Assembly: GCF_003337305.1 (NCBI RefSeq)
Contig: NZ_QPJO01000001.1
Location: 1,068,291-1,132,290, forward strand
Direction of reading: 5' to 3'
DNA from: Winogradskyella arenosi
Lineage (GTDB): Bacteria; Bacteroidota; Bacteroidia; Flavobacteriales; Flavobacteriaceae
DNA length: 64,000 nucleotides
The position numbers were made by a program, and so were the translations under genes. The notes beneath the pieces are model-generated. The model was given only the letters and a program-made list of their open reading frames with translations, did no database searches and was not told the DNA's origin. Each line of letters opens with the position of its first letter. Positions within the stretch are counted from its first letter, which is position 1. This document shows positions 4,498 through 17,106 of this stretch, one piece after another.

Positions 4498-4520
4498 ATT
4501 CCTGCGAACGCAGAAATCTC
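4498..4520. repeat. Short hairpin repeat
   Basis: TTCCTGC-GAAC-GCAGAAA forms a near-perfect stem with a GAAC loop, directly after the paaB stop. Confidence 0.6.
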
Positions 4521-6071: not shown

Positions 6072-6097
6072 TGTCATTCCTACGAAAGCAGGAATCT
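6072..6097. repeat. Short hairpin repeat
   Basis: TGTCATTCCTACGAAAGCAG followed by GAATCT; the stem is ATTCCT/AGGAAT around a GAAA-containing loop. Confidence 0.6.
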
Positions 6098-11020: not shown

Positions 11021-11042
11021 TTTCTGCGAAGGCAGAATTCTC
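11021..11042. repeat. Short hairpin repeat
   Basis: TTTCTGC-GAAG-GCAGAAT stem, directly after the peptidase stop. Confidence 0.6.
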
Positions 11043-11090: not shown

Positions 11091-11261
11091 GTGCGTTAGG
11101 GATTACTCATTTATTCTATTTTATTAAATAAGAATTCGTGAGTGTTGCACAATTGTAACGGCATCCTTTTTTACGTCAGTTCGAGTGAAATTGCTTTTTG
11201 GCAATTTTGTATCGAGAACAAGTAAAAAAGATATAGTGGATAGCCCGACCTTTAGGTAACG
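11091..11261 (+). repeat. R2 element, copy A, left of paaJ
   Basis: 171 bp with the same sequence as 12652-12822 apart from about 7 substitutions and no indels (hand count). Outer parts read GCGTTAGGGAT and GGTAACG. GGCATCCTTTTTT and AAAAAAGATATAG flank a complete R1 copy in the centre. Found also in opposite orientation at 21084 without R1. It makes up most of the 297-base gap before paaJ. Confidence 0.85.
11174..11221 (+). repeat. R1 palindromic repeat, type a, copy 8, nested in R2
   Basis: Starts CGTCAGTTCGAGTGAAATTG, ends TATCGAGAACAA. It sits between the two poly-T/poly-A inner arms of the R2 element. Confidence 0.88.
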
Positions 11262-11288
11262 CCAAAATAAATAATTAGGAATTAATAA

Positions 11289-11310
11289 GATACCTGTTTG
11301 GGCAGGCATT
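11289..11310. repeat. Short hairpin repeat near the paaJ start
   Basis: TACCTG-TTTGGG-CAGGCA stem, 4 bases before the paaJ ATG. Confidence 0.5.
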
Positions 11311-12876: not shown

Positions 12877-12945
12877 ATGAAAAAAGTAGAACACATTGTT
12901 TCCGTGAAAACGGAAATCTTATCAAATGAAACACTAAGTTTATGA
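12877..12945 (+). CDS. Possible 22-codon upstream reading frame overlapping the paaZ start
   Basis: An ATG directly after a hairpin opens 22 codons starting MKKVEHIV; its stop overlaps the paaZ ATG as ATGA. The first residues resemble the paaZ start (MRKIEHYV), so this may be an old copy of the paaZ start displaced by the hairpin at 12899. It could be translated and coupled to paaZ, or be a relic. No independent evidence of expression. Confidence 0.3.
   Translation: MKKVEHIVSVKTEILSNETLSL
12899..12920. repeat. Short hairpin repeat, perfect stem with GAAA loop
   Basis: TTTCCGT-GAAA-ACGGAAA is a perfect 7-bp stem with a GAAA tetraloop, 26 bases before the paaZ ATG. Confidence 0.75.
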
Positions 12946-15479
12946 GAAAGATTGAACATTATGTAAACGGACAATGGACCACAGGAAAAGAAGAAGGACA
13001 GTCAATTTTTGATGCTGTAACAGGTGAGGAATTTGCAAGTATTGCTGTTGAAGGATTAGATATTCCCGAAATTCTAAATTACGGAAGAACCAAAGGAGGA
13101 GAAGTCCTTCGTAAAATGACCTTTCAAGAGCGTGGAAACATGCTTAAAAAATTAGCATTATATCTTACCAAAAGAAAAGACCAGTTTTATGAGCTAAGCT
13201 ATAGAACAGGAGCAACGCGTGTTGATAGTTGGATAGATATTGAAGGTGGTTTTGGAAACTTATTCGCCAACGCATCCTTACGTAAATTATTCCCTAATCA
13301 ACCCTATCATGTAGAAGGCGATGCTATCGATTTGTCTCGTGGTGGACGTTTTATGGCGCATCATATTATGGTGCCTAAAAAAGGGGTTGCTGTGCATATT
13401 AATGCATTCAACTTCCCAGTTTGGGGAATGTTAGAAAAATGCGCAGTAAACTGGATGGCAGGAGTTCCTGCTGTGGTGTTGCCTGCACCTTCGTCTTCGT
13501 ATTTAGCAGAAGCCGTTGCAAGAACCATTATAGATTCCGGGATTTTACCCGAAGGGGCTTTACAAATCATAAACGGAACAGTTAAAAATATTCTCGATAC
13601 TGTAGAGTCTCAAGATGTAGTAACCTTTACAGGTTCTGCACAAACTGGACGATTACTAAAAGCGCATCCAAGATTAATTCAAGAATCGGTACCTTTTACT
13701 ATGGAAGCCGATTCTTTAAACGCTTCCATTTTAGGAGAAGATGCGGTTCCTGGAACACCAGAATTCGACTTGTTCATCAAAGAAGTTAGAAAGGAAATGA
13801 CCGTTAAAGCTGGACAAAAATGTACAGCCATTAGACGCATCATTGTTCCTGAGAAATTAGTAGATGACGTACAAACTGCATTAGCAAAACAATTAGATAA
13901 AGTAACTATTGGAGACCCAAGATTAAAAGAGGTTAGAATGGGTTCTTTAGTGAGTCGTCAACAAGTACAAGCCGTTCGAGATTCGGTAAACGATTTATCA
14001 AAAGAAGCACAAATTGTATATGGTAATTTAAACGAAATTAATACCATTGGAGCAGATGCCAAAAAAGGCGCATTTATGAGTCCGATTGTATTACGAGCAG
14101 ACCATCCATTTCAAAATACCGTTATTCATGAGCGTGAAGCATTTGGTCCTGTAAGTACCATCATGCCTTATAAAAATCTGGATGAAGCTATAACTTTAGC
14201 GCAAATGGGTAAAGGTTCACTAGTGTCTTCCATTGCAACCAACGATGATAAAATTGCTAAAGACTATGTTATAAATGCAGCATCGCATCATGGTAGAATT
14301 TTAGTTCTAAATAGAGAAAGTGCAAAGCAAAGTACAGGACATGGTTCGCCATTACCATATTTAGTACATGGTGGTCCAGGACGTGCTGGTGGTGGAGAAG
14401 AAATGGGAGGTATGCGTGGAATTAAACATTATTTACAACGTACAGCCATTCAAGGTTCGCCAACAACTATTACTGAAATTACTGGAGTTTACCAACAAAA
14501 TGCAAAATATAAGGAAGCAGAAAAGCATCCGTTTCAATACCATTGGGAAGATATTCAACCAGGAATGTCTTTAAAAACCCACAAGCGTACCTTAACAGAT
14601 ACGGATATTCAGAATTTTGCCAATTTAACTTGGGATCACTTTTATGCACATACCGATATTACATCTTTAGACGGAAGTATTTTCGAAAAAAGAACAGCGC
14701 ATGGTTATTTTATAATTTCTGCAGCAGCAGGATTATTTGTGTATCCAAATAAAGGACCTGTAGCAGCTAATTATGGTTTAGATAGTATCCGTTTTTTACG
14801 ACCTTTATATCATAACGATACTATTTATGTGCGTTTAACCTGTAAAGAAAAAGTAGATAGAGATGTCGCTTCAGCAGAACATCCTAGCGGCATTGTAAAA
14901 TGGCATGTGGAAGTTTTTGACGCTAATTTTGAAAACCGTCCCGAAAGTCAGAAAACCGAAAAAGATAGTCCGTTAGTAGCTGTTGCAACCATTCTTACGA
15001 TGGTAGAGAAAAAGCAAGAAACTTTTGTGGAAATGACAGAAGAAAAAATAGAGAAATGTCTTTCTAAATTACAAGAAGATGCAAAACCAAAATGGGGAAT
15101 TATGACGCCTCAGCATATGATTGAGCATTTAGAATATACTTATAAAATTGCATCTGGAGAAATTCAAGATTTTGAAATTGCAACACCTTCAACCATTTTA
15201 GATAAAGTGCATCATAGTTTATATAACTACTATAAATTTCCGAAGAACAGTCAATTTCCACAATTAGAAAAAGATACTTTAGAGCCTTTAAAACATCCTG
15301 ATTTAGCAACAGCTATTGAGAAGTTTAAGGAACAAAGAAAAAAATATATAGAATATTATAAAGAGCATCCAGAAGCTAGATTGAAAAATTTGGTTTTCGG
15401 AGAATTAAACAAATATGAAGCGTACCTTTTAGAGCGAAAGCATTTGAATCATCACTTTGAGCAGTTTGGTCTCTTATAA
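12942..15479 (+). CDS. paaZ: PaaZ: oxepin-CoA hydrolase / 3-oxo-5,6-dehydrosuberyl-CoA dehydrogenase with extra C-terminal DinB-like domain
   Basis: 845 residues against about 680 in E. coli. Residues 1-515 are an aldehyde dehydrogenase with catalytic Cys near 294 ([11 protein letters not shown]) and Glu in TMEADSLN. Residues 530-680 are a MaoC hotdog hydratase with WDHFYAHTD (catalytic Asp and His) and [10 protein letters not shown]. Together these open the oxepin ring and oxidise the aldehyde to 3-oxo-5,6-dehydrosuberyl-CoA. Residues 690-845 form a third region ([19 protein letters not shown]) resembling DUF1569/DinB-like helical bundles. That last part is unusual compared with proteobacterial PaaZ, and its role is unknown. 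Confidence 0.93.
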
Positions 15480-15480
15480 G

Positions 15481-15506
15481 GTCAATGCGCACGCGTTGCG
15501 CATTCG
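15481..15506 (+). repeat. Left terminal inverted repeat of the GIY-YIG cassette
   Basis: AATGCGCA-CGCGT-TGCGCATT palindrome within GTC...CG context. Inverted partner at 15843-15868. Confidence 0.7.
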
Positions 15507-15522
15507 CTTAAATTGAAACGCA

Positions 15523-15840
15523 ATGTCTAAAAAATATTATACATACATTTTAACTCACGAAAGAAATCACATCTTTTATGTTGGTGTAACAAATAATATA
15601 GAACGACGAATGAGTGAACATAAAGCAGCAACTTTTGGAACTCATGTTAGACATTATAACATTAAAAAATTAGTTTATTTTGAAGCGCATTCCGATATAC
15701 GAATCGCCATCAAAAGAGAAAAGACCATTAAGAAATGGAAAAAAGTTTGGAAGAGAAACCTAATAACGAAAATGAATCCTGAATGGATGTATTTAAGTTT
15801 AGGTTGGAATCTTTCTAAATATAATAAGAACAAAGATTAA
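15523..15840 (+). CDS. GIY-YIG nuclease superfamily protein
   Basis: 105 residues, the compact YhbQ/UPF0213-like type. The GIY-YIG core is YYTYILTHERNHIFYVGVTN (residues 5-24) followed by IERRMSEHK with the conserved Arg and a His. The Lys/Arg-rich C-terminus (REKTIKKWKKVWKRNLI) is probably DNA-binding, and the catalytic-region residues N and W near the end match the family. Cellular role of such small proteins is mostly unknown. It is flanked on both sides by inverted copies of a palindrome, like a self-contained mobile unit, and splits paaZ from the PaaF-like gene. Confidence 0.88.
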   Translation: MSKKYYTYILTHERNHIFYVGVTNNIERRMSEHKAATFGTHVRHYNIKKLVYFEAHSDIRIAIKREKTIKKWKKVWKRNLITKMNPEWMYLSLGWNLSKYNKNKD

Positions 15841-15842
15841 TA

Positions 15843-15868
15843 CGAATGCGCAACACTTGCGCATTGAC
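15843..15868 (-). repeat. Right terminal inverted repeat of the GIY-YIG cassette
   Basis: AATGCGCAA-CAC-TTGCGCATT, a perfect palindrome with 9-base arms. On the minus strand it repeats the left end. Confidence 0.7.
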
Positions 15869-15880
15869 ATACTAAAAATA

Positions 15881-15903
15881 GATTCCTGCCTTCGCAGGAG
15901 TGA
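15881..15903. repeat. Short hairpin repeat upstream of the PaaF-like gene
   Basis: TCCTGC-CTTC-GCAGGA perfect stem, 18 bases before the ATG at 15921. Confidence 0.7.
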
Positions 15904-15920
15904 TAGTAAAAAATAAAAAT

Positions 15921-16673
15921 ATGAGAGACCCTTATGTTAAGTTAGAAATAATAAAAGAAGTAGGCTACATCGAATTCTTTCATCCTGCACACAATTCTCT
16001 TCCAGGAGATATATTAGCAGAACTAGCACAAACCATTACAGCTGCTGGAGACAACGATGCTATTAAAGTAATCGTTCTTAAAAGTGGAGGCGATAGAACC
16101 TTTTGTGCAGGAGCAAGTTTTAATGAACTTATCAATATTAATGACGAAGCTACAGGTAAAGTATTCTTTTCAGGATTCGCAAACGTAATTAATGCCATGC
16201 GTAAATGTCCAAAATTCATCATTGGTCGCGTACAAGGAAAAACCGTTGGTGGAGGTGTTGGTTTAGCCGCTGCAACCGATTATTGTATGGCTACTAAATT
16301 TGCTTCTATTAAACTTAGCGAACTAAATATTGGTATCGGACCATTTGTTGTCGGACCAGCCATCGAGCGTAAAATGGGATTAAGCGCCATGTCGCAAATC
16401 GCCATAGATGCGAATACATTTTATTCACCGGAATTTGCTAAAGACAAAGGTTTATATACTCATGTTTTTGATAGCACTGAAGCTTTAGACGAAGCTGTAA
16501 AAACAACAGCAGAACATTTATGTACTTACAATACCGAAGCGATGCTAGAAATGAAAAAAGTATTCTGGAAAGGAACAGACCATTGGGATACTTTATTGGC
16601 AGAACGCGCAGCAACTAGTGGACGATTGGTGCTGAGTGATTTTACAAAAGAGAAATTGAAAGGGTTTAAGTAG
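15921..16673 (+). CDS. Enoyl-CoA hydratase/isomerase family protein, probable PaaF role
   Basis: 250 residues of crotonase fold: FCAGASFNELININ oxyanion region, GGGVGLAAATDY, and KLSELNIGIGPFVVGPAIERKMG. Position in the operon, between paaZ and paaY, and the lack of another hydratase argue for the PaaF step (2,3-dehydroadipyl-CoA hydration). However the Glu normally found in GGGCELA of hydratases is Gly here, while the second Glu (LSEL) is kept. This pattern resembles methylglutaconyl-CoA hydratase-like proteins, so the exact reaction is uncertain. A GTG at 15900 is a weaker start lying in a hairpin repeat. Confidence 0.82.
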   Translation: MRDPYVKLEIIKEVGYIEFFHPAHNSLPGDILAELAQTITAAGDNDAIKVIVLKSGGDRTFCAGASFNELININDEATGKVFFSGFANVINAMRKCPKFIIGRVQGKTVGGGVGLAAATDYCMATKFASIKLSELNIGIGPFVVGPAIERKMGLSAMSQIAIDANTFYSPEFAKDKGLYTHVFDSTEALDEAVKTTAEHLCTYNTEAMLEMKKVFWKGTDHWDTLLAERAATSGRLVLSDFTKEKLKGFK

Positions 16674-16727: not shown

Positions 16728-17106
16728 ATGGAATTTGAAAGCAAGTATCATTTTAGTTTTGAAAATTTAATTGTCTATCAAAAAGCAATTACTTTTGGAG
16801 AAGATATTGATAAGTTAGTAGAAACTTTTCCAAAAAAAAGAAATGTTTAGGTTAACGTCTCAATTTTCACGAGCAGCAGATTCTATAGCAGCAAATATAT
16901 CTGAAGGTTCGGCAAGTACGGATGCTAATTTTAATAGGTATTTAAAAATGGCTTGGGATAGTAGTCATGAGTGTGTAACATGGAATACAAAAGCCTATTT
17001 AAGAGCTTATATTTCTAAAGAAGAATTTGAATCAAACCGTGCTATGTTAACAGAAATAGGAAAAATGATTTCCGCTTTAAGAAGAAAACTGAATTTAAAA
17101 AAGTAA
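16728..17106 (+). pseudogene. Four-helix-bundle protein gene broken by a frameshift in an A8 run
   Basis: The ATG at 16728 opens MEFESKYHFSFENLIVYQKA and runs into a stop at 16848-16850. The rest of the family (FRLTSQFSRAADSIAANISEG, NFNRYLKMA) continues in another frame from about 16843 to 17106. Removing one A from the A8 run at 16832-16839 joins both into an intact 125-residue protein of the S23/four-helix-bundle family. It may be a real mutation, a base-calling error, or expressed by slippage on the A run. Function of the family is unknown. Flanked by inverted repeats. Confidence 0.8.

Follow-up and report, generated by a model that had tools for sequence, protein, structure and literature searches.

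Small GIY-YIG nuclease genes bracketed by outward-tagged palindromes in Winogradskyella and other bacteria, candidate partners of CGTC-tagged REPs

The window analysed here, a stretch of 64,000 nucleotides from Winogradskyella arenosi, contains a 388-bp unit (15481-15868) made up of one gene between inverted palindromic ends (Table 1). The last base of the upstream stop codon is 15479, position 15480 is a G and the unit begins at 15481, as stated in an earlier sequence-only reading of this DNA, which had placed the unit one base past the paaZ stop. The flanking genes are putatively named paaZ and paaG. For paaG the listing of open reading frames gave a GTG start at 15900, and we preferred the downstream ATG.

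Table 1. The unit and its surroundings, in window coordinates
Feature	Positions	Strand	Details
Upstream gene (putative paaZ)	12942..15479	+	One base from stop to unit start
Left end	15481..15506	+	GTC tag 15481-15483, stem AATGCGCA 15484-15491, loop CGCGT, stem TGCGCATT 15497-15504, tail CG
GIY-YIG nuclease gene	15523..15840	+	105 aa, PF01541 match
Right end	15843..15868	-	Left-end sequence inverted, GAC at 15866-15868
Decayed ATTCCTGCcttcGCAGGAgTGA palindrome	15882..15903	-	Aligns with right half of relatives' gene-less REP pair at same junction
Downstream gene (putative paaG)	15921..16673	+	ATG at 15921 is the authors' choice

When the right end was inverted and compared with the left (15481-15506 against 15843-15868), 24 of 26 positions were identical, a recount that corrects the 23 of 26 claimed previously. 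Across 60 dinucleotide shuffles of 15201-16200, inverted 26-mers matched at 20/26 positions at most, and the pattern recurs in relatives; a chance origin of the inverted ends was rejected on both counts. Both ends form hairpins with the arms AATGCGCA and TGCGCATT and a 5-nt loop, and the right end can be extended to a 9-bp stem with a 3-nt loop. Measured against its own shuffles, the right-end fold had a z of -4.85 (0/200 as good) and the left-end fold was modest (z -1.75, 13/200 as good). The tags, GTC at the outer left and GAC at the outer right, both point outward. Read from outside they are GGTC on the left and TGTC on the right, such that GTC is constant and the first base variable, and the tails are CGCT (left) and CGTA (right). 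With up to two mismatches allowed, the palindrome pattern was found only at the two unit ends in the 3.67-Mb genome. The decayed palindrome downstream of the unit (15882-15903) also folds, with a z of -4.25.

The description of the unit as a GIY-YIG gene between palindromic ends was borne out by the protein searches, in which the 105-residue product matched PF01541 with 57.5 bits (cut-off 22.6). T5orf172 barely passed (20.2 against a cut-off of 20). These were the only Pfam families identified, with no HUH tyrosine transposase, and an identity as a RAYT was rejected on that basis. Five residues are invariant in alignments of 12 proteins (Y6, Y17, R27, E64, and N83) and of 31 proteins (Y8, Y19, R29, E66, and N85); L236, in which a stop codon occurs, was for that reason kept out of the structure alignment. 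Catalytic roles belong to Tyr, Tyr, Arg, Glu, and Asn residues in GIY-YIG enzymes. The unit protein and its relatives also have in common, together with the active-site residues, the tail REKxxKKWxxxWKxxLIxxxNPxW. The predicted structure (pLDDT 86.8, pTM 0.79) had as its nearest solved folds in Foldseek UPF0213 protein BH0048 (1zg2) and the branched-DNA nuclease SLX1, with a best E of 1.1e-3 and no match at E <= 0.001. By sequence, the nearest solved structure was 1ywl (UPF0213, E 0.0089), and the unit protein resembles UPF0213 proteins (1zg2, 1ywl) in being a single GIY-YIG domain of about 95-105 residues. By its domain match and active-site residues the protein is assigned to the GIY-YIG nuclease superfamily, and it is predicted to be a metal-dependent DNA-cleaving enzyme. 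The median dN/dS of its gene was 0.09 (36 pairs, with dS saturated in five), and the gene is thus under strong purifying selection.

The genus set comprised 60 genomes, the window's own (G000) included. One of its proteins (L019, in G017) is identical to a protein that NCBI assigns to Winogradskyella. Nine of these carry a gene 77-100% identical to that of the window, all of them at the paaZ-paaG junction, and this unit (hereafter unit A) was found at no other place in the 60 genomes. The palindrome, as AATGCGCA or ACTGCGCA, is present in exactly two copies in each of the nine carriers and in none of the 51 non-carriers, and in six carriers an A-T to C-G change in the left stem is found on both sides, with the hairpin kept. 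Widespread gene-less copies of the unit-A palindrome, searched for as the exact pattern in the 60 genomes, were rejected by these counts. The sequence-only reading had named two findings that would speak against a mobile unit, and each proved to be true in part. Palindromes occurring widely without the gene are absent for unit A (0/51) and present for the sister palindrome ATTCCTGC. A position common to all relatives holds among the carriers and not among relatives at large.

Comparison with the neighbouring paaZ gene indicated that unit A has not simply descended with its surroundings. At third codon positions the genes of G000 and G052 are 89.5% identical as opposed to 56.7% for paaZ (0/2,000 permutations). 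This excess identity over paaZ was present in 11 of 12 pairs between G000, G052, G048, and the near-identical group of G042, G019, and G005 (p <= 0.0015). It was missing from the twelfth, G000-G048 (p 0.16), and from all eight pairs that include G028. Over all pairs, the gene was more alike than paaZ at third positions in 17 of 36 (one-sided p < 0.05, no multiple-test correction). Purely vertical inheritance of unit A was rejected on the basis of these 17 pairs, and its inheritance is mixed. The unit has thus crossed lineages into the same junction, although not every time, and the window's gene has done so more recently than its neighbour genes.

The paaZ-paaG junction was read in 50 of the 60 genomes. 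Five junctions were left out despite a paaZ-like match (G006, G013, G017, G020, and G049), and five more genomes because the paaZ match was absent or weak. Of the junctions read, 17 were empty, nine held unit A, eight held a different GIY-YIG unit, three a gene-less ATTCCTGC pair, five another neighbour gene and five other inserts. By eye, the G047 junction holds a further different GIY-YIG unit (classed by the script as "other"), and those of G010 and G008 hold mixed or decayed REP pairs. In the empty junctions that were printed, the downstream gene begins one to three bases past the paaZ stop. Empty sites in relatives, which the sequence-only reading had suggested looking for, are therefore common. 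On a tree of paaZ ends (152 residues, 14 of 47 inner branches well supported), the junction states need 26 changes, with a minimum of five and 29.8 for shuffled labels, which gave values as low as 26 in 5/200 cases. The empty G023 and the REP-pair-bearing G010 are sisters on this tree (100/88). These junction states could partly reflect ordinary recombination of the gene cluster. The alleles found here (empty, REP pair, and two kinds of nuclease unit) constitute a natural experiment on the gain and loss of units.

G003, G055, and G038 have a gene-less pair whose right half aligns with the decayed palindrome at 15882-15903 and its surroundings. On the paaZ tree, G003 clusters together with G000 and G057 (support 92/80). 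No half REP pair was found within 45 bases after the unit in the other eight carriers. The simplest reading of this arrangement is that in the window unit A entered a junction with a resident REP pair and replaced the left half of that pair. Comparison by eye of unit-A with empty junctions revealed no target duplication; the neighbouring bases also differ. For this copy the label of "tiny transposon" given by the sequence-only reading overstates the case, as unit A has a single junction in all nine carriers, no duplicated target was seen and rejoining of DNA is not a known part of GIY-YIG chemistry. In contrast to an insertion sequence, which would be expected at several sites, unit A is at one only; its sister clades are at several.

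Four junctions that hold a second GIY-YIG unit (G016, G033, G040, and G029) had an additional peculiarity, in that paaZ ends in ~20 bases whose inverted copy comes next. The resulting long palindrome spans the paaZ stop, and the terminal codons of paaZ are not the same as in other genomes. The inverted copy is perhaps the footprint of a fold-back insertion.

Homing endonucleases with a GIY-YIG domain are a known class, and the behavior of unit A at its junction invites comparison with them. A free-standing homing endonuclease would have the same catalytic domain, and its spread by break repair into an empty allele would look alike. Under such an explanation, the target of the enzyme would be the empty paaZ-paaG allele instead of the palindrome, allelic repair would copy the nuclease gene in, and the palindromes would be terminators or would protect the carrier allele. 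That unit A is confined to one junction, has crossed lineages into that same junction and coexists with many empty alleles agrees with this explanation. Terminal palindromes and gene-less relatives, however, are not known to be part of this class, and the explanation has to be judged together with the sister units of the genus.

The 60 genomes contain many more distant GIY-YIG relatives, mostly at 33-50% identity among the matches listed. Of 127 profile matches, 105 were used for counting flanking palindromes, after duplicates, fragments, low-scoring matches and edge cases had been removed. A hairpin was present within 130 bp upstream of 55 of these 105 genes, downstream of 51 and on both sides of 37. 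An outward GTC tag was found upstream in 26, downstream in 27 and on both sides in 22, and an inward tag upstream in none and downstream in seven. In the same stretches, 123 control ORFs (at least 100 aa) included three with hairpins on both sides and one with both tags pointing outward. Among 2,100 flank pairs that had been shuffled, two had hairpins on both sides and none was tagged outward on both. A general richness in hairpins was rejected as the cause of the association because of these low values in controls and shuffles.

The palindrome sequence differs by clade, with ATTCCTGC common to the HQYY and WYVYIM clades. Using clade patterns that were defined post hoc, after the bracketing data had been seen, simple hairpins on both sides were counted in 8/8 distinct unit-A genes, 8/16 HQYY, 5/17 WYVYIM, 6/9 YHNYWVY, 3/4 YSFVYIM, 5/10 HYVYII, 1/6 YYCYIL, 0/4 GYVYI, and 1/6 unassigned genes. 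Palindromes were identified at none of eight "YhbQ-like" GIY-YIG genes in the same genomes, a label given by resemblance that includes the borderline L142 and L146; this sets the hairpin-bracketed genes apart from these presumably UPF0213-type genes of comparable size. The KCSD clade had no simple hairpins on both sides (0/17) and instead has larger repeats that start GTCA..TTCGAGTG. Such a repeat lies tag-out within 300 bp upstream of all 17 KCSD genes and on both sides of 12, as opposed to 1/88 tag-out and 2/88 tag-in near genes of other clades. The genome of the window has two near-identical KCSD-type genes (L001 and L002, contig C3, ~383 kb) within a tandem array of at least 13 palindromic units of ~133 bp, in which each GIY-YIG gene is mid-unit. 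One array unit was folded, with a z of -5.98, and the gene preceding the array is presumably secA-like.

The flanks of the sister genes were informative as to their sites. Among relatives at 85-95% identity, 26 pairs had non-homologous flanks (no common flank ORF of at least 70 aa at E <= 1e-8) and 42 had homologous ones, counts in which at least two of the 26 pairs come from one stretch (L133) and overlapping loci inflate the homologous number. All 19 pairs at 95% identity or more had homologous flanks. Occupation of non-homologous sites, another check suggested by the sequence-only reading, thus holds for some of these relatives and not for unit A with its one junction. It is also among the reasons why we consider the homing explanation introduced above to be unlikely: sister-clade relatives at 85-95% identity often have non-homologous flanks, and homing leaves unexplained the pairing of clade with palindrome, the outward tags and the dispersed gene-less sister palindromes.

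At two of the sister loci, L020 (in G040) and L030 (in G011), the nuclease gene lies between direct repeats of ~60 bp. The repeat includes a palindrome and the start of the downstream gene, which is presumably lipoamide acyltransferase-like, as if insertion had duplicated the target.

Gene-less copies of the palindromes are widespread for sister clades. The ATTCCTGC palindrome was identified in 55 of the 60 genomes, in up to 65 copies, and the reversed pattern in none of the 60. At 30 fetched REP sites with 34 palindromes, a GTC tag was on 16 and absent on 18, and all three close pairs in this small sample were tag-out, as are the unit ends. After subtraction of unit ends, the median REP number was 18 in the 24 genomes with a matching-clade gene and 7 in the 36 without (p 0.002), the matching genes being those of the ATTCCTGC clades, chosen by us among the matches listed. 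The correlation of REP and gene counts was moderate (Spearman 0.40), and G014 has 16 ATTCCTGC REPs and only one weak GIY-YIG match. A dense cluster of ATTCCTGC palindromes was observed around one GIY-YIG gene in G052 (L075, contig C29, 407775-409388).

These counts bear on the possibility that the nuclease is a host-domesticated guard, which would act for the cell on REP hairpins and cruciforms, resolving or removing them, and would adjoin repeats without moving them. The strong purifying selection, the presence of SLX1, a cutter of branched DNA, among the nearest solved folds, and the persistence of REPs in genomes that lack the gene would all suit a guard. Nevertheless, genomes with a matching-clade gene have more REPs and not fewer. 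The patchiness of the distribution, the scatter of junction states and the recent transfer of unit A also resemble a mobile element more than a housekeeping gene. We regard a guard function as improbable.

A scan beyond the genus, with one genome per species, identified at least 587 relatives, and the best 80 were kept. These are mostly from Alphaproteobacteria (Rhizobium, Caulobacter, Sphingomonas, and others), with Thiobacillus, Kangiella and metagenome-assembled genomes labelled Bacteroidetes, Nitrospirota, Omnitrophota, Parcubacteria and more (labels as given). Bracketing was assessed at 75 of the 80 loci, five without full flanks or an in-frame stop being left out. An outward-tagged hairpin lay within 200 bp on any side at 55 of the 75 loci (44 upstream, 38 downstream) and on both sides at 27; by this strict rule 20 of the 75 had none. 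The corresponding numbers for 461 control ORFs of at least 150 aa from the same contigs were 23 on any side (13 upstream, 12 downstream) and two on both (Fisher, any p 1.8e-39, both p 2.7e-23). Inward-tagged hairpins on both sides were also raised (9/75 versus 2/461), a consequence of REP clustering. Of the 27 brackets, 19 had the same arms at both ends, compared with 1.7 expected from re-pairing between loci, and mean arm identity was 0.91 versus 0.62 when re-paired (0/10,000 shuffles). The two ends of one bracket thus belong together. With 105 genus genes and 75 loci elsewhere forming a broad pattern, the unit of the window is not a lone case.

The same data allow the palindromes to be considered as ordinary transcription terminators or mRNA stabilisers that flank small inserted genes. 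In the survey by Di Nocera et al. (2013; PMC3733652), positions downstream of genes are described for REPs, and transcription as RNA elements is considered plausible for many of them. In the genomes studied, outward-tagged hairpins are about equally frequent upstream and downstream (44 and 38 of 75). Control ORFs, which are longer (at least 100 or 150 aa), are rarely flanked, and the equally small YhbQ-like genes are not flanked at all (0/8). A role as terminators or stabilisers therefore has very little probability in our view.

A further set came from a plasmid collection, of which 15 of 33 records were examined by eye and without a control. At 13 of the 15 loci, a hairpin bearing a tag of the GTC or CCTC type lay within 300 bp on one side or both, and these include loci of S. 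meliloti, A. lipoferum, N. aromaticivorans, and N. gonorrhoeae. The frame used for Sinorhizobium K101 ended at once, and only the upstream side of this locus was counted. The A. lipoferum unit sits between sufB and sufC, and no hairpin was seen by eye within 300 bp of the Planktothrix and Spirosoma loci. The Planktothrix agardhii locus (L154, plasmid p1) is a relative without palindromes that lies between a MmeI-type restriction enzyme and DISARM drmA. S. meliloti, A. lipoferum, N. aromaticivorans, and Neisseriae are also named as holders of CGTC-REPs in the survey (PMC3733652).

Copy numbers in 20 named genomes were compared with their units. Exact GTCATCCTCGGGnnnnnCCCGAGGATCC copies, unit ends included, numbered 43, 62, 15, and 26 in the genomes of L165, L172, L174, and L175, whose units bear the same stem and tail as the copied REP. 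Of the remaining 16 genomes, four had one to three GTCATCCTCGGGnnnnnCCCGAGGATCC copies and 12 had none. Exact copies of the ATCCTCGGG REP likewise numbered 43, 62, 15, and 26 in the first four genomes and did not exceed three in these 16. The L213 genome had no GTCATCCTCGGGnnnnnCCCGAGGATCC copies, though its unit has the same stem with a different tail. Close REP pairs in the 20 genomes occur in both orientations.

The bracketing palindromes have features in common with CGTC-tagged REPs. The survey that defined these REPs reported them from five phyla and stated that they "apparently lack a dedicated transposase" (PMC3733652). These REPs form the classes CGTC-1 to CGTC-4, including dRS3 of Neisseria and RPE-4 and RPE-6 of Rickettsia, have the tag variants TGTC and CCTC, and have a tail that is mostly CCA, as described in the same survey. 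Points of likeness are the unpaired GTC-type tag at one end, the stem of 8-9 bp opening with two A/T pairs, the loop of 4-5 nt and the inverted pairs; the palindrome of the window has such a stem (AATGCGCA) and a 5-nt loop, and in its tags GTC is kept and the base before it varies. It differs in being confined to a single unit, in its tail (CG, not CCA-like) and in its two copies per carrier genome as opposed to a high copy number, and on these last two points does not match the published families. The survey reports no associated transposase and contains no mention of GIY-YIG (PMC3733652). Nor was a paper linking GIY-YIG with REPs found among the matches listed by a full-text literature search, whose scope excluded most subscription papers and all preprints.

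REP/RAYT systems (REPtron, TnpA-REP) offer the nearest parallel in architecture. There, too, a small nuclease gene is bracketed by inverted tagged palindromes, and gene-less palindromes are scattered as singles and inverted pairs. The enzyme and the tag are different, being an HUH tyrosine transposase with GTAG in those systems and a GIY-YIG protein with GTC here. No GIY-YIG enzyme is known to form the covalent DNA-protein intermediate that transposases use in rejoining DNA. What we rate as new is a combination of tagged REPs with a dedicated nuclease, itself of a known kind, that is built on an unrelated enzyme, GIY-YIG.

Based on the bracketing, the pairing of clades with palindromes and the lability of sites, which can be read directly in the genomes, we infer cutting and movement. 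We think it probable that the unit of the window is one of a widespread group of small GIY-YIG nucleases, many of them hairpin-bracketed, that cut their own repeat and thereby spread both the unit and gene-less copies. The enzyme would bind its own hairpin in single-stranded or cruciform DNA and would cut near the GTC tag. Host break repair would then fill the break with a copy of the whole REP-gene-REP unit or of just the REP pair, such that both would spread through cutting and repair without a classical transposase. The phrase "palindrome-mobilising element" in the sequence-only reading fits this proposal, in that relatives are bracketed alike, with empty sites and non-homologous flanks, and fails only in the transposon sense for the copy in the window. 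Several observations stand against the proposal. Unit A has no dispersed gene-less copies in the 60 genomes, some REP-rich genomes have no matching gene, and REP and gene counts correlate only to a moderate degree. Outward-tagged hairpins are missing from 20 of the 75 loci in the broad set, inward-tagged ones are raised as well, close REP pairs occur in both orientations, and 18 of 34 dispersed REPs in the genus had no GTC tag. The absence of a Foldseek match at E <= 0.001, the lack of a known covalent intermediate and the possible part of ordinary recombination in the junction states also count against it.

As the pairing of enzyme and repeat recurs across many bacterial groups, the GIY-YIG family may well be the long-missing mover of CGTC-REPs. 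On balance we lean towards small GIY-YIG nucleases being the missing mobilisers of the CGTC-REP superfamily, dRS3 included, moving units and gene-less pairs by hairpin cutting and break repair; the GIY-YIG units would then be the mobilising partner that these REPs were said to lack. The clade-specific palindromes around this nuclease family make the origin of CGTC-REPs, a question since at least 2013, directly testable. If the proposal is correct, hairpin-repeat systems would have arisen twice, with unrelated nucleases (HUH and GIY-YIG) that would handle DNA differently.

Some minor features were observed elsewhere in the window. Degenerate relatives of the ATTCCTGC palindrome core, with two mismatches each, are at 11023-11036, 6079-6092, and 4501-4514, and the start of the minus-strand ORF 11124-11309 reads like a translated REP. 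A small ORF at 16843-17106 has a product that presumably resembles a four-helix-bundle protein of the 23S intervening-sequence type.
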